From assembly GCF_004087915.1 (NCBI RefSeq), contig NZ_CP035108.1:2604001-2668000 (forward strand): a stretch of DNA of 64,000 nucleotides, given 5' to 3'. The translations under genes and the position numbers were made by a program. This DNA comes from Geovibrio thiophilus. GTDB lineage: Bacteria > Chrysiogenota > Deferribacteres > Deferribacterales > Geovibrionaceae. Below, piece after piece: positions 16,623-28,153 of this stretch. The notes under the pieces were generated by a model. That model made no database searches, was not told where the DNA came from, and saw only the letters and a list, made by a program, of their open reading frames with translations. Numbering within the stretch: position 1 is the first letter of the stretch; the number at the start of each line of letters is the position of its first letter.

Positions 16623-16725
16623 GTGATAGTTCAGAAAAATGAATATCTATGTTGTTTTGCTTCACCCGCAGCAACTCCATTGTCGGAGCTGCAAGGTTTC
16701 CCGTGTCATCGCGAACTATTTAATA

Positions 16726-17270
16726 ACATGAAACTGCACATCCTATCAGTTTCATGTACACGCTCGCGGCGGGATAAACCCGCCTTCGCTTCGCACGGCG
16801 CAACTCCATCCTTGGAGTTGTATACGTCAGTTTTAATAACATGAAACTATACATCCTGTCAGTTTCATGTACACGCTCGCGGCGGGATAAGCCCGCCTTC
16901 GCTTCGTACGGCGCAACTCCATCCTTGGAGTTGTATACGTCAGTTTTAATAACATGAAACTATACATCCTGTCAGTTTCATGTACACGCTCGCGGCGGGA
17001 TAAACCCGCCTTCGCTTCGCACGGCGGAACCCCATCCTTGGAGTTGTATACGTCAGTTTTAATAACATGAAACTGCACATCCTGTCAGTTTCATGTACAC
17101 GCTCGCGGCGGGATAAACCCGCCTTCGCTTCGCACGGCGCAACTCCATCCTTGGAGTTGTATACGTCAGTTTTAATAACATGAAACTGTACATCCTGTCA
17201 GTTTCATGTACACGCTCGCGGCGGGATAAACCCGCCTTCGCTTCGCACGGCGCAACCCCATCCTTGGGAA
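16726..17270 (+). repeat. Tandem array: five copies of a 113-bp structured repeat
   Basis: Equivalent ATG-AAACT positions recur at 16728, 16841, 16954, 17067 and 17180, exactly 113 bases apart; the fifth copy breaks off near 17270. A degenerate part-copy precedes the first (about 16670-16700). Each unit holds three hairpins: ATGAAACTG/CAGTTTCAT, a GCGGG-ATAAA-CCCGC stem-loop, and CAACTCC/GGAGTTG. Copies differ by a few substitutions only. Open frames on the minus strand through the array are artefacts, because 113 is not a multiple of three. Relatives occur at 50757, 63136 and 63291. Confidence 0.95.
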
Positions 17271-17647
17271 GCCGAAGGATCTCACAATTATCCAGCGGCA
17301 TGATGGACGCATATTAAAAAAAATATTGATTAACCGGCGGAGAAACAGCCGCACATTTTCAAGTCTGTTTCAACAGACAAAAATAATCAGCTTTCTGATT
17401 ACGTTTATCAATATCCAGACAGACACGGATCCCTGCGGATGCTAAGGAAATATTGGATTTACGTTATTTGAACGCCTGAAAGTATGTAATAATTTTTGTC
17501 GAGTTTTCAACAATCCTTATGTGGAAAGCGTGTGGAAAAAAAAGTCTCAACATTACAATAAGTTCTGCTTAACATAACTTAACATGCGTTTTTTCCACAT
17601 GTTATCCGTAACTTATAACATATTCAATATTACTGCGGGGTTTCCCG

Positions 17648-18541: not shown

Positions 18542-20386
18542 TCAGTTCAGTCCGAATTCTGCCAAAAGCATATCTATATCGTCCTGCGTGGCTCCGCTTA
18601 TGCTTTCGCCTGTTTCGTCTTTTTTGGCTTTTATGATGCCGAGTATGGCGCCTATTCTTGCCCCAACTTCTTCAACAGACTTGATCACCTTTCTGAGTTT
18701 CTGCTCTGTTATATCCTGAAACTCAAGAGCATGGAGGATGCCGAAACCGAGATTTTCAGCCAGTGATATGTCCGACTCAATATGATCTATGCTTTTCAGC
18801 AGTCCTTTGGAATCCTTTTTGTAGACAAGGTCTTCAAAATCCTCAATATCATTGAGGAACTGTGAATAGAAAGCGGTCATTTTGTCTGCCGCCTCCATGA
18901 GGTTCATGGTGGCTTCCTCTGTCTTCTCGTTCACCTGCTCAAGGGACTGCACAACAACCGGCATGCTCTCTTTGGACATGACAATCGTGGGGTCAACTTC
19001 ATCGACCTTGGTTTTAGTATCAAGGATTAATCTGAGGAGCTCGCCGATTTCGCCTTTGATGTCAATGCCAAGATCAACTGCGTCACCGTTGATTATTTTC
19101 TTTGAAAGGTGTTTGAGTTCTTCAAGAGAATCCGCTTCAATAAACATCCCTTTCACTGCCTGAGCAGGGGGTTCATCTCTGAATTTGGCAGCCGCAGGTT
19201 CGTCTCTGACTTCAAAAGACTCAGCCTCACGGAGAATATCGTCTATATCGTCCGTCTGAACAGTTTCAGGATCATCAAGAGCGACTGTTGTGCTCTGAGC
19301 AGTGAGAAGCTCCTCCATGGATGGTCCGAAGAACTCTTCATTAACGGCTTCGGCGGTGTTTTCTTCTGCTTCAGCGACTTCCGCTGCCTGATCAGCGAAG
19401 AAAGAGGACACGTTAAACTCCTCTTCCCCTAATTTTTCATTTTTTTTTTCCTGCTCTTTTCTTTGGCGGTTAAGATCGTCAGTCTCTTTTTCCCTTTTCG
19501 CAAGTTCCATCGCAATGAGGGCGTCAAGTTCGTCCTGAACCACGTGTCCTTCGTCTCCGCTCACCACATGGTCGCTCTGGCTGAGTGCGTCTTTAAGTAT
19601 ATCTTCAACGTCCGCATCCCCCTCAGCTTCATGGAATTCGGGCGTCAGCTTTTTTTTGTTGAGCTCGTCTGTTTCCTGCTCTCTTTTGGCAAGCTCCTTG
19701 GCAATGAGGTCATCAATGCTGTCAAGAGCGTCGTCAGATGAATCATCGTCAGAGGCGGCTTCTTCAGATCCGGTCTCATCCTCATCGGTTATTTCACTTT
19801 CAACCGCTTCGGCAACGTCATCATAATTGACAACAGGCTTCGCCTCTATTGCCGCCTGTCCGAGGAACCGTCTTCTCAGATCGCTCTCGGCAACCGCTTT
19901 GCCTTCGGCTATAACAGTATCTATATCAAGAAGAATTATAAGCCTGTCATCGTATTTGCAGATTCCCAGAATGTATTCCTGACCGATGGAACCTACAAGA
20001 GGAGGGGTGGGGTCAACCATGTTTTTGCTGATGCGGATAACTTCCGTAACCTCATCAACAACAAAACCGATATGTTCTGTATCAAAACGAACGACGATGA
20101 TTCTCGTCTCTTTATCGAAATCCATTTTGTCGAGATTGAACCTTACCCTGAGATCCACAACAGGAATAACCTTGCCCCTGAGGTTCATCACCCCTAGAAC
20201 GAAGGAATCAGTCCGCGGGACGGAGGTAATCTCCACTGTGCGGATGATCTCCTGAATCTTGAGAACATCTATGGCGTACTCCTCATCTCCGAGTTTGAGA
20301 CCTACAAGCTGGATTATCTCTCCTTCTTCAAGTGAATCAAACTCTTCATCCAATCCAGCAGGATTTACCGGCTTAAGATTGCTCAT
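18542..20386 (-). CDS. CheW-CheZ fusion chemotaxis protein
   Basis: A 614-residue protein. Residues about 20-165 are a CheW domain (GEEYAIDVLKIQEIIR-like start, VPRTDSFVLGVMNLRGKVIPVVDL), which docks to receptors and CheA. Residues about 190-430 are a very acidic linker containing two copies of a DxLIAxELAKREqETDeLN motif. The C-terminal ~180 residues are helical and CheZ-like: LEFQDITEQKLRKV matches the CheZ phosphatase motif, placing D558 and Q562 at the E. coli D143/Q147 positions. The last 15 residues, with DDIDMLLAEFGL, match the CheZ peptide that grips CheY. I infer a receptor-array-anchored CheY-P phosphatase. An FlhG-like gene lies 11 bases upstream. Confidence 0.85.
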   Translation of the reverse strand: MSNLKPVNPAGLDEEFDSLEEGEIIQLVGLKLGDEEYAIDVLKIQEIIRTVEITSVPRTDSFVLGVMNLRGKVIPVVDLRVRFNLDKMDFDKETRIIVVRFDTEHIGFVVDEVTEVIRISKNMVDPTPPLVGSIGQEYILGICKYDDRLIILLDIDTVIAEGKAVAESDLRRRFLGQAAIEAKPVVNYDDVAEAVESEITDEDETGSEEAASDDDSSDDALDSIDDLIAKELAKREQETDELNKKKLTPEFHEAEGDADVEDILKDALSQSDHVVSGDEGHVVQDELDALIAMELAKREKETDDLNRQRKEQEKKNEKLGEEEFNVSSFFADQAAEVAEAEENTAEAVNEEFFGPSMEELLTAQSTTVALDDPETVQTDDIDDILREAESFEVRDEPAAAKFRDEPPAQAVKGMFIEADSLEELKHLSKKIINGDAVDLGIDIKGEIGELLRLILDTKTKVDEVDPTIVMSKESMPVVVQSLEQVNEKTEEATMNLMEAADKMTAFYSQFLNDIEDFEDLVYKKDSKGLLKSIDHIESDISLAENLGFGILHALEFQDITEQKLRKVIKSVEEVGARIGAILGIIKAKKDETGESISGATQDDIDMLLAEFGLN

Positions 20387-20397
20387 TGAACACCCCT

Positions 20398-21282
20398 TTA
20401 CAGCTTTGCGAGAAGCTGCTGTCTTACGTCATCAATGCAGGAGTTCACTTCCCTGCTGACGAGGCTTGTGTAGAAAGGCTTTAAGAGCTTAATGCTCTCG
20501 CTTACCTTAACATCATAAGGTATGAAACCTATTTTTTCAATATCTATACTAAGGTATTTTTTCGCAACGGTTTCGAAACCGTAAAAAACATTAAGCTCTT
20601 TTTTGGTTTTCAGCATATTCAGGATTATCCCCACCTTATATGAGGAAGCGATCTCCTCCGTTTTCGGCACATAGGCGGGATCAATTTCTCTCACTGCCTC
20701 TCTTATTGAGGCGAGGCTGGGGAAGTTCATGCTCTTGCTGCGTATTTTTTTACATATCTCGGCGAAGCGGTAGTCCTTTCTTAAGAGCTGCTCGACTTTT
20801 CTGTAAAGAGCTATTTTCAGAAAGCCGTAAGAGTTTTCCAGAGAGGTGGGTTCACTGTTCATTATCATGATTTTTTTATCGGCAGAATTGAAAAAATCTA
20901 TCATGTTATAACTTGTCCCAGCACCAAGGTCCATTACAACATATTCGTATTCAAGGGTTTTAAGTCTGTTGAGTATTTTCAGTTTTTCGTAGTTGGTTAT
21001 ATGAGCCATACCGAGAACATCTCCGGTACCGCCAATGAAATCAACCCCCGCGGGGCTTTTCTGTATGATGTCGCCGATGCGGAAGCTTTCCTTCAGAAAA
21101 TTATAAAGCCCTGTTCCCGGAAGCTTAAGCCCGACAAAATCGTGGAGATTCGCGCCGCCCAGATCCGCGTCAACAAGAAGAACCCTTCTCCCTGCCGCAG
21201 TGAGCGACATAGCTATATTCGCGGAAAAAAAACTCTTGCCTACTCCGCCTTTACCGCTGGCAACGGAAACTATCTCAGCCAT
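20398..21282 (-). CDS. MinD/ParA-family ATPase, FlhG (FleN)-like
   Basis: A 294-residue deviant-Walker ATPase: VASGKGGVGKSFFSANIA at about residues 7-24, VDADLGGANLHDFVG, and DLGAGTS, followed by a longer C-terminal part than MinD. FlhG/FleN proteins set flagellar number; ParA-like relatives position chemotaxis arrays. The start at 21282 was chosen because GGGGAG precedes it; five more upstream codons are open. It ends 11 bases before the CheW-CheZ gene, and that pairing supports a motility or chemotaxis role. Confidence 0.85.
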   Translation of the reverse strand: MAEIVSVASGKGGVGKSFFSANIAMSLTAAGRRVLLVDADLGGANLHDFVGLKLPGTGLYNFLKESFRIGDIIQKSPAGVDFIGGTGDVLGMAHITNYEKLKILNRLKTLEYEYVVMDLGAGTSYNMIDFFNSADKKIMIMNSEPTSLENSYGFLKIALYRKVEQLLRKDYRFAEICKKIRSKSMNFPSLASIREAVREIDPAYVPKTEEIASSYKVGIILNMLKTKKELNVFYGFETVAKKYLSIDIEKIGFIPYDVKVSESIKLLKPFYTSLVSREVNSCIDDVRQQLLAKL

Positions 21283-21303
21283 AACTCCCCGCAACAATGT
21301 ATT

Positions 21304-21744
21304 TCAGGTGTTTTGTCTGTATTTCACAGCAATATAATATATCACAAAATATGTTATAACGCCAAATATTAATCCTATCAGGTGTGTGCCGGCGAAAAAA
21401 GGGAGCAGTATGGTTCTCGCCGCTTCAAAGAGCTCTGTCAGCGAGGTATTGGTCCAGTCAATGTCTATAGGGGTATCATCGCGAAGAATCCATCTGCCGA
21501 CCTTATAACAGAGAGCGTAAATAAAAACCATTGTAAAAGGATTTGTGATGTAAGCGCCCAAAAGCAGCGGATACATAGGCAGGCTGAATATAAAGGATAT
21601 GCCTATGGCAAGAGCGGTGTGGAACCCCACATACGGGGAGAACCCAATCATTACCCCCACTGCTGACGAAATAGCAAGAATCTGAGGAGAGCAGTCAAGC
21701 TGGAACAGCTTCCTGAGTTTCTTGCGAATCATATTGAACGCCAT
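21304..21744 (-). CDS. DUF2062 membrane protein
   Basis: About 146 residues with three or four membrane segments and the DUF2062 pattern SPQILAISSAVGVMIGFSPYVGFHTALA, then YITNPFTMVFIYALCYKVG. Function is unknown; relatives often stand beside glycosyltransferase or motility genes. The start is uncertain: ATG at 21744 has only a weak ribosome-binding site, and a GTG at 21792 in the same frame is the alternative. It precedes the FlhG-like gene by about 20 bases and is likely cotranscribed. Confidence 0.8.
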   Translation of the reverse strand: MAFNMIRKKLRKLFQLDCSPQILAISSAVGVMIGFSPYVGFHTALAIGISFIFSLPMYPLLLGAYITNPFTMVFIYALCYKVGRWILRDDTPIDIDWTNTSLTELFEAARTILLPFFAGTHLIGLIFGVITYFVIYYIAVKYRQNT

Positions 21745-21831
21745 ATATATTAACCGCCGCTTTATATCTCTGTGAAAACTGCGTGCATACACAGCCTCAG
21801 AGATTATAAATGAGCGGAGCGGAATTTAAAA

Positions 21832-25234: not shown

Positions 25235-26350
25235 TTATTTCAGCGGTATTCCGAATCTTCTTGCCGCTTCGGTGAAATCCACATCCATTCCAGCCTGCGC
25301 CGCTTCCCTGATTGTAGTCCAATCCGCGTATTTTTTCTCCTCAAAAACAAACGACGGAAGCTTGCATCCGCTGCCGAAGTTAAGCTCCGCTATCCATCTG
25401 ACCAGAGTGGAATTTACCGTACCCGCCAGTGAGGCGGCGGTCTTTGCCGCTTTTATACCGAATGTTCTGGAGTGCTCCTTAGCAAGGGCGTATGATGCGC
25501 CTGAGCCGGTGTCGCTGGTGAGTATTTCTCCTGTTACTGCCTTTGAGATCTCTCCGTTGCAGACCTCAATCAGCTTTGCGAAATCCTCCGAACTTCCCCT
25601 GCTTTCAAGCACCTGAACCTTTTCCACGTTGGCTAACGCCACTGCGGCATCGTTCTGTATGCCGCTTAAGGATTCAGCCAGAGCCTGCGCCCTGCGCCTC
25701 GTTTCCTCTCCTCCGTCCGAATTGAACATGGCAAGGACTGTCGGAACACCGAATTTCTCCGCAACGGTGAGCCAGAAGCGAAACCCTGCCTTCTTGAACA
25801 TCCACGGCCAGTAGCATTTGGACAGAACCGGGCTGCCGTAGGGGTTTTCGTTTCTGGGCATATGCCTGTGGATTATAAACTTGTATTTTTCATCAAGTTC
25901 TGTCTTCCCTCCTCCGTCCGCCATGAAAAGACCGCCTTCCGAATCAAAAAGAAATCTGGCTGGATTCCGGTTCAGAAGCTTTTCCGCCAGCCAGTGAGCC
26001 CCCTCCTTCCTCCACACTATTTCCGTAACGGAAAAACCGTATTCCACGGCGGAAAGCATCTCCTCAAGCTCCTGAAGAAAGTTCGGCATGTCTTTGAGAT
26101 TTCTCCGCACATAATCAGCGGTCTTAGCCGCTTCCTTTGTGGAGTCTGCGGGAATTATGCTCCACTCATACGCAAGCACGCCGTGCCTTAGCTGCTCAAG
26201 TTTTGCGGAAATATGCGCATCCGCCAGCATTTCATCAAAGATCGACAGACGGAGACCGTTTTTTGACAGTATAACGTCAGGATTCGGCATAAAGCTTAAA
26301 AATGTTGAAAATTCCGCCGCTGAAGAAACGGCTTTTGTAAGATTATTCAT
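25235..26350 (-). CDS. Phage portal protein, Mu gp29-like (DUF935)
   Basis: A 371-residue protein matching the DUF935/Mu gp29 portal family: the N-terminal LRLSIFDEMLADAHISAKL, the HRHMPRNENPYGSPVLSKCYWPW core and a late VTGEILTSDTGSGASYALAKEH segment. Portals form the dodecameric gate for DNA in capsids. The C-terminal tail beyond FGIPLK is shorter than in full-length relatives. AAGGGGGAAC precedes the ATG, and the gene starts 11 bases after TerL, so the packaging order is kept. No capsid, protease or tail gene follows. Confidence 0.88.
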   Translation of the reverse strand: MNNLTKAVSSAAEFSTFLSFMPNPDVILSKNGLRLSIFDEMLADAHISAKLEQLRHGVLAYEWSIIPADSTKEAAKTADYVRRNLKDMPNFLQELEEMLSAVEYGFSVTEIVWRKEGAHWLAEKLLNRNPARFLFDSEGGLFMADGGGKTELDEKYKFIIHRHMPRNENPYGSPVLSKCYWPWMFKKAGFRFWLTVAEKFGVPTVLAMFNSDGGEETRRRAQALAESLSGIQNDAAVALANVEKVQVLESRGSSEDFAKLIEVCNGEISKAVTGEILTSDTGSGASYALAKEHSRTFGIKAAKTAASLAGTVNSTLVRWIAELNFGSGCKLPSFVFEEKKYADWTTIREAAQAGMDVDFTEAARRFGIPLK

Positions 26351-26361
26351 AATGTTCCCCC

Positions 26362-27759
26362 TTAATATCCTCTGAATATGGCGCCTGCCTGTCTGGAGGT
26401 TCCCGAATGAACCCCTTCGGGCATTGCCCTTGCTCCACCCTCACTCAGCGCCTGAGTGAGAGCGTCAACCATGTCGTCATGCCTGCCGAAGGGGAAAGCC
26501 GCAGCCTCCTCCACCAGTTCAGCGCTGAAAGCCTTGTCCTCCGGCAGATAAACATTTCCCGCCTCAAGGAGGGGCTGAACCGCATAAGCCCTCGAAATCT
26601 TTGAGCCTTTCGGCTCCACGGCTATCATTCCCTGAATCTCCTTTCTGAGAGCCGAAAGAACAGCAGAGCCGTTCGCCTTGTCCTCAACATATTTCGCCCC
26701 CGCCTGCGGCCATCGGACAGTGAGGTTTTTTACCGCTCTTACAGTTGCGGAAAAATCCATTCTGTCCCGCACCATATCGGCAAGGTATCTGCACGAGCCC
26801 TTAACAGCCCAGACCTGTCCCACAACATAGTCGGCTCCTTCGTTACCCTTGAAGCTCATGTCCCATGACTGAAACCAGCAGTCCGGATCGGCTGGAAGGG
26901 TTCGGTAATAACGCCACCATTCCCGTTTGAGCACTGTTCCCGAATCAGGCGCCGGCTCCTGCATATAGAGAGCGTTCCACACCCTTGAGCCCACGGACTG
27001 CCTTATGCGGTTCAGTTCTTCCTCCCCGTATTTCGCAGCCCAGAGAGGCTCACCATGTTTTCGGAAGGATTCGTCCGCTTCGGCGACAGCGGGGAGCTTA
27101 AGAATCCTCCATTCCCCCGGGTATTCCTTGAGGAGCCTGCCCGCAAGATCGTCCTCGTGCCATCTGGTCTGCACCAGAATTATCCGTCCGTTTTTTTCCA
27201 GCCTCGTAAACAGCGTAGAGCGGTACCAATCCCACAGCTTGTCCCTGTAAAGGGCTGAAGACGCCTGTTCGGAGTTTTTAACAGGATCGTCAATGATGAT
27301 CAGATGCCCGCCCTGACCGGTTATTGAACCTCCGGCACCCGCGGCGAGATAACGTCCGCCCTCCTCCAGCTCCCATCTTGACGCGGAGCGGGCATTCGCT
27401 CTCAGACCTTTTCCGCCGAATACATTTAAAAAGAGTCTTGACGCTGCAAGATCCCTCACCCGCCTGCCGAAACTCTCGGCAAGCTCAGCACTGTATGAAC
27501 ACGCGATAACGTTCAGCTTGGGATTCCGTCCCATGAACCATGCGGGAAAGCGTACCGAAGTAATTTCGCTTTTGCCGTGTCTGGGCGGCATCATCACCAT
27601 CAGTCTGTCCGTTTCGCCTCTTTCCACAAGCTCAAGCTCACGGGCAAGCAGCCTGTGGTGCCAATTCGGGAGGAAGTCTCTGAAGCTCAGCATGCAGTAA
27701 GAAATAAGCGACTTTTCCGCCTTCCGGCATGCAGCGGCTCTCGGATCAGTCTTCATCAT
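26362..27759 (-). CDS. Phage terminase large subunit (ATPase/nuclease)
   Basis: A 465-residue TerL. ATPase: Walker A PPRHGKSE (residues 58-65), Walker B HLIIIDDP with D157 and D158, coupling region VQTRWHEDDLAGRL. Nuclease: QSWDMSFKG with D300, VEDKANG near 358-364, and GRHDDMVDALTQAL with D428/D429/D432. Every expected catalytic residue is present and the frame is unbroken, arguing against simple decay. It packages DNA into phage-type heads. It overlaps the TerS-like gene by 14 bases. Confidence 0.94.
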   Translation of the reverse strand: MMKTDPRAAACRKAEKSLISYCMLSFRDFLPNWHHRLLARELELVERGETDRLMVMMPPRHGKSEITSVRFPAWFMGRNPKLNVIACSYSAELAESFGRRVRDLAASRLFLNVFGGKGLRANARSASRWELEEGGRYLAAGAGGSITGQGGHLIIIDDPVKNSEQASSALYRDKLWDWYRSTLFTRLEKNGRIILVQTRWHEDDLAGRLLKEYPGEWRILKLPAVAEADESFRKHGEPLWAAKYGEEELNRIRQSVGSRVWNALYMQEPAPDSGTVLKREWWRYYRTLPADPDCWFQSWDMSFKGNEGADYVVGQVWAVKGSCRYLADMVRDRMDFSATVRAVKNLTVRWPQAGAKYVEDKANGSAVLSALRKEIQGMIAVEPKGSKISRAYAVQPLLEAGNVYLPEDKAFSAELVEEAAAFPFGRHDDMVDALTQALSEGGARAMPEGVHSGTSRQAGAIFRGY

Positions 27760-28153
27760 CCTCCGTTACCCTTGCGGCGTCCTCAAAAGAGATGTCGTAC
27801 AAATCATCCAGAGCATTGTTGGTTTTGACGGTGCCCATTATTTCCTCAGGCTTTGTCAGTCCCACATCCCTGTACGCCTTCAATGTTTTGGAATGAGTTT
27901 CCAGATCCTTCATGTTCCCGCATTCATCCAGCATGCTGTCCGCCTTTTCTATCCCCTTAAGCGCAACATCCTGCACAGCCTTAAGAATCCTGATCCGTTT
28001 CCTGCGTCCGGTTTCAAGACTGTTCTCCCATTTTTCTTTTTTTGCTCTTTTTTTAATCTCAACGGAACTGCATCCGAATATCCCTGCGAGATTGTCCGGA
28101 TCTGTGTTGCCGTTTTCATATTCTTCTCTGATTTTTACCCAGTCGAACCCCAT
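27746..28153 (-). CDS. Terminase small subunit-like protein
   Basis: A 135-residue protein with an N-terminal helix-turn-helix (DPDNLAGIFGCSSVEIKKRAKKEKW) followed by a basic stretch (TGRRKRIRI) and long helices, the layout of small terminase subunits that recognise packaging sites. The family assignment rests on this layout and on its place directly before TerL with a 14-base overlap. The acidic tail DAARVTEDDED is encoded in the overlap. Confidence 0.7.
   Translation of the reverse strand: MGFDWVKIREEYENGNTDPDNLAGIFGCSSVEIKKRAKKEKWENSLETGRRKRIRILKAVQDVALKGIEKADSMLDECGNMKDLETHSKTLKAYRDVGLTKPEEIMGTVKTNNALDDLYDISFEDAARVTEDDED

Follow-up and report, generated by a model that had tools for sequence, protein, structure and literature searches.

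A CheW–CheZ fusion of Geovibrio thiophilus with a conserved ten-adenine run, a putative transcriptional slippage site for two length variants

Geovibrio thiophilus encodes a CheZ phosphatase domain joined to a CheW adaptor, and a conserved stretch of ten adenines within the gene very probably leads to two products, a long one that includes the enzyme and a short one that lacks it. We consider it quite likely that these two length variants, one an adaptor of the array and the other a CheY-P phosphatase tethered to it, are generated by programmed transcriptional slippage. The coding sequence of the long form (614 aa) occupies positions 18,542 to 20,386 on the reverse strand of the window, which is the whole 64-kb stretch of DNA that was analyzed; the parts of the fusion gene and its two neighboring genes described below lie on this strand as well. 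From the sequences, we infer a mechanism in which the common part of the two forms (CheW and the linker repeats, approximately 316 aa) would join receptor arrays through CheW, and the repeats would probably contact the neighboring FlhG/MinD-like ATPase, in a manner similar to the ParP-mediated link between arrays and ParC in Vibrio. Slippage of RNA polymerase on the ten-A run would produce transcripts that vary in their number of A. Those in one frame would be read on into CheZ to give the 614-aa long form, which would dephosphorylate CheY at the array using D558 and Q562, and those in the other frames would stop at the run or a few codons away to give the 316-aa short form. The frequency of slippage would set the fraction of adaptors bearing the phosphatase.

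The CheW part matches PF01584 over the whole domain (residues 26–160, positions 19,907–20,311; E = 5.6e-39) and is the top CheW match of the genome, with 136.8 bits. The CheZ domain comprises residues 414–614 (18,545–19,147). When the whole 614-aa protein was searched, PF04344 gave an E value of 3.3e-4 (21.0 bits), and the isolated C-terminal part gave 4e-7 with 30.6 bits, marginally below the curated cut-off of 30.7. All 25 aligned relatives matched PF04344 individually (best 6.7e-11), and a profile of these 25 relatives matched the E. coli CheZ chain of 1KMI among solved structures at 1.9e-9 over nearly the full length. In this alignment, FQDITEQ lies over FQDLTGQ and the tail lies over the tail, so that D558 and Q562 of the catalytic motif EFQDITEQ (residues 555–562, 18,701–18,724) align with D143 and Q147 of E. 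coli CheZ; both positions are invariant in the 25 aligned sequences. The C-terminal peptide QDDIDMLLAEFGLN (residues 601–614, 18,545–18,586) resembles the CheY-docking peptide SQDQVDDLLDSLGF and is conserved except in the Mucispirillum group. The fusions of that group (L047, L048, L067, and L090–L095) have a degenerate C-terminal peptide, REQLLVDYGLA, and retain both linker repeats and the catalytic motif. AlphaFold predicted the CheZ part to be a long helical hairpin (helices 61–109 and 113–179 of the model) at low confidence (pLDDT 63), and a second model was also of low confidence (pLDDT 49.5); both are too weak to bear on the fold. A Foldseek search with the former low-confidence model returned no significant PDB match and no CheZ among the matches listed. 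The profiles, the catalytic residues, and conservation throughout the phylum give good support to the identification of the protein as a CheW adaptor bearing a CheZ phosphatase domain, and anchoring of the phosphatase to the array via its own CheW domain is the natural inference. The original prediction had given the open reading frame, its length, strand, and residue numbers correctly, and its assignments of the CheW domain, of CheZ with D558 and Q562 in the catalytic motif, and of a CheY-binding-like C-terminal peptide agree with these results.

The fusion was found all across Deferribacterota, three genomes from a distant Chrysiogenetes-like family among them, in a genome survey of the kind that the original prediction had proposed. 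A contig scan with narrow patterns returned only Deferribacterota, but those patterns missed the Chrysiogenetes-like relatives themselves. An FlhG/MinD-like ATPase gene (20,398–21,297, start codon uncertain; PF01656 and PF10609) is the upstream neighbor of the fusion gene, and a DUF2062 membrane-protein gene (21,304–21,792; PF09835, 2e-28), usually the first of the three-gene group, precedes it; the three genes form an operon. The ATPase adjoins the fusion at all loci with readable upstream DNA, usually with DUF2062 ahead of it, and its closest solved structures are those of FleN. Nearly all genomes with the fusion possess a second CheZ, which in Deferribacterales is a separate protein of approximately 212 aa; in the genome of G. 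thiophilus, this ordinary 212-aa CheZ is encoded in the flagellar/chemotaxis cluster with cheA, cheY, fliM, flhF, and flhG. In G015 and G017, which belong to the same genus and have no FliM, the ATPase and CheZ are both missing. The original prediction was right about the CheW and CheZ identities but incomplete, as it had overlooked both this second, free CheZ and the ten-A run. Several side observations were also made. Three consecutive CheW domains occur in a single 511-aa open frame (G000:C1:2187696-2189135, L075–L077). Downstream of the fusion gene, the window contains a tandem array of a 113-bp unit with copies of 92–96% identity (16,719–17,283). Elsewhere in the window, terminase-like and portal-like open reading frames beside several Cro/CI-like regulators, recognized by eye only, suggest a prophage remnant at 25,235–28,153.

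CheW and CheZ are connected by an acidic linker, and the two repeats noticed in the original prediction are real, with copies in every aligned fusion. Repeat 1 (DSIDDLIAKELAKREQETDEL, residues 222–242, 19,661–19,723) is conserved across the phylum, a middle motif (ADVEDILKDALSQ, residues 258–270, 19,577–19,615) corresponds to DILNDAxxQ in relatives, and repeat 2 (VQDELDALIAMELAKREKETDDL, residues 283–305, 19,472–19,540) begins with a stretch similar to the peptides by which FliM and CheZ dock to CheY. The repeat consensus is IDxLIAxELxKRExET, present in one full copy to four per aligned fusion and in two to four in most, and the rest of the linker is not conserved across the phylum. A search for the repeats in other proteins of the same genome gave only a chance-level match. 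There are two kinds of candidate partner for the repeats. One possibility, which we regard as rather doubtful, is that the repeats are extra docking sites for CheY-P and that the adaptor is a CheY-P sink, not a partner of the ATPase. The start of repeat 2, QDELDALIA, resembles SQEEIDALL of the FliM of this genome and the CheZ tails, and a matrix built only from FliM and separate CheZ tails placed repeat 2 as the top site of the linker in most relatives, often with p<0.05. However, the conserved part of the repeat extends into ELAKREKETEEL, which is missing from the FliM and CheZ peptides, and the Q is usually missing from repeat 1. Moreover, in one genome of a reduced lineage with no CheZ match (G004), the ATPase gene still has as its neighbor a gene for CheW with a single linker repeat. 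That CheW, a repeat, and the ATPase persist there with no CheZ match lends some support to docking of the ATPase on the repeats, as suggested in the original prediction, and the survival of the repeat there suggests that its partner is the ATPase or the array. In this 1.3-Mb genome, the CheW-repeat gene (L131, 4627–6081) is embedded in a TDAST-rich repeat region.

The ten-A run (GAAAAAAAAAATGA, 19,440–19,449), the putative slippage site, follows immediately after repeat 2 and precedes CheZ, in the context GAA AAA AAA AAT GAA, of which the first four codons are codons 313–316. In G. thiophilus, frame 0 leads to the CheW–CheZ protein; if one A is inserted, a TGA (19,437–19,439) comes into frame directly after the run and ends a 316-aa CheW-repeat protein. 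This is the sole A10 of the window on either strand, and the 3.0-Mb genome contains six such runs in all, counting both strands. Six further genomes had 4–9 distinct A-run sites each, of which at least one was always in the fusion gene. An A-run of 10–14 follows repeat 2 in 35 of the 37 readable genomes and is exactly ten in 26 of them, even though its codon phase and peptide vary (EKKN, SKKKI, EKKK, and QKKK), and it is retained even in fusion genes of >50% G+C. In most members, a shift of frame on one or both sides meets a stop within 0–3 codons. One genome has the fusion and lacks the run (G001), and another (G029) has lost both the run and the catalytic motif of CheZ. A second run of 9–11 occurs after repeat 1 in Seleniivibrio-like, Mucispirillum-like, and Denitrovibrio genes (L036 5232, L046 5696, L047 5805, and L048 5985, in gene orientation), from which a still shorter form with CheW and one repeat is possible.

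At least three lineages have the frames swapped, namely, Denitrovibrio, genus g13, and family f6. Frame 0 does not extend past the run in three genomes of Denitrovibrio, four of g13, G030, and contig L108, and the contigs that reach far enough contain the acidic linker and CheZ in another frame, whose opening lies at the run or immediately ahead of it. The shifted-frame CheZ is stop-free except in one Denitrovibrio metagenome-assembled genome (MAG) and has kept FQDITEQ or FQDITQQ. Its pN/pS was 0.13–0.27 within g13 and Denitrovibrio (0.13–0.19 apart from one MAG), and constraint was weaker in the f6 pair (0.42). As these sequences read, the frame-swapped organisms can make CheZ with the linker only via a change of frame at the run, and the CheZ of frame-swapped Denitrovibrio and g13 is under purifying selection. 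The MAG with stops, BM701 (G019; L070, 5919–8062), carries two stop codons in frame within its CheZ part, which may represent decay or an assembly error. In another Denitrovibrio contig (L035, 5891–7180), the shifted-frame acidic linker is expanded by approximately four copies of a unit resembling IELPEDLEDILEETEEVVEEDVIDEPIEEIVDEIEEQ. In the frame-swapped lineages, the CheZ half is prone to being labeled a frameshift or pseudogene by automated annotation.

The same two products would also arise if ribosomes, instead of RNA polymerase, changed frame by programmed −1 frameshifting on A AAA AAA. This heptamer does occur, and in the genus of G. thiophilus the −1 frame meets a stop immediately, but the +1 frame is required in G018 and the g10 genomes; we judge this explanation unlikely. 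Neither a Shine–Dalgarno sequence upstream of the run nor a hairpin or other structure downstream, which would favor ribosomal frameshifting, was found to be conserved. We prefer transcriptional slippage to ribosomal frameshifting on account of the +1 frame required in G018 and g10 and the lack of conserved stimulatory signals, although the products would be identical either way.

It is quite improbable that the 614-aa protein alone is made and that the run is a by-product of a lysine-rich linker. Frame 0 is indeed open in the genus of G. thiophilus and in 29 of the 37 genomes, and A10 is often recreated by synonymous-codon shuffling, arising with P of 0.1–0.96 per fusion gene because the linker is rich in lysine; shuffling alone is thus too weak as proof of selection on the run. 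However, the run is avoided at other lysine-rich sites. Among peptide sites capable of encoding A10, 38 of 68 in fusion genes used it, compared with 0 of 95 in 548 other open reading frames from the same loci (Fisher p = 9e-19, which is only indicative as the sequences are related). In addition, the exact length of ten recurs across differing codon phases, several lineages need a change of frame to make CheZ, and the run was lost along with the catalytic motif in G029. The case for the run rests on this avoidance elsewhere, its position, and the frame-switched lineages. Heritable on/off switching of CheZ by changes of run length at replication is hardly likely either: long A-runs do mutate, lengths of 11–14 differ among Seleniivibrio and Denitrovibrio, and the frame is flipped in some lineages, but 26 of 37 genomes have a run of precisely ten, its length does not vary within Mucispirillum or within the genus of G. 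thiophilus, and a length that stays the same among homologues has been published as the sign of transcriptional, not replicative, slippage (PMC1088944).

Transcriptional slippage at this gene would have known counterparts. A-runs of nine or more are known to cause transcriptional slippage, and a length kept constant among homologues has been proposed to indicate purposeful slippage (PMC1088944); here, such a run is kept in 35 of 37 genomes and absent from the 95 control sites. The A9 of Thermus dnaX is a proven site (PMC1088944), dnaX relatives with A10 have been described (PMC3711429), and in Citrobacter tssM (tssM1), slippage on A11 yields two forms that are both required, as is their ratio (PMC4256274). 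The fusion gene is like these in having a run in the A9–A11 range that would give short and long proteins, but differs in that its default frame varies between lineages. With E. coli CheZ (PF04344, 1KMI), the fusion shares the catalytic D and Q in FQDxTxQ and the C-terminal CheY-docking peptide, and a long helical hairpin is predicted for its CheZ part at low confidence. By contrast, E. coli CheZ is a separate protein that short CheA holds in place (PMC7750401), whereas the phosphatase domain of the fusion is covalently joined to CheW. In E. coli, CheA is likewise an array protein with a short and a long form, and one of the two is tied to the localization of CheZ (PMC7750401), but there the variants are of CheA and CheZ is separate, whereas in the fusion it is the presence of the phosphatase itself that slippage would control. 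ChePep of Epsilonproteobacteria is similar in placing CheZ independently of CheA (PMC7750401), but it is a separate protein and not a fusion. The CheW-like ParP of Vibrio and Halothiobacillus also integrates into arrays and is encoded with a ParA/MinD-family ATPase, ParC (PMC5706961, PMC10241942). We rejected the fusion as a ParP because the domain order does not fit: ParP has an N-terminal ATPase-binding region followed by a C-terminal CheW-like domain and has no phosphatase, whereas CheW of the fusion is N-terminal. The neighboring ATPase also differs from ParC in being nearest to FleN/FlhG. The adaptor part and the ATPase would work like ParP with ParC in function only.

Among the papers searched, there was none on a CheW–CheZ fusion and no case of slippage in chemotaxis, and no chemotaxis gene is named among the slippage cases in the main text of PMC3711429, PMC1088944, or the review PMC5009743. 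The gene probably represents a would-be slippage switch in chemotaxis and a further route of CheZ to the array, besides short CheA and ChePep. The frame-swapped lineages are natural experiments in which the two-isoform model is directly testable. The location of CheZ determines how the CheY-P gradient is shaped and how fast the response is. To our knowledge, the known ways of placing CheZ depend on recruitment of a separate protein; in the fusion, the phosphatase is part of the adaptor itself, and its dose would depend on the slipperiness of ten bases.
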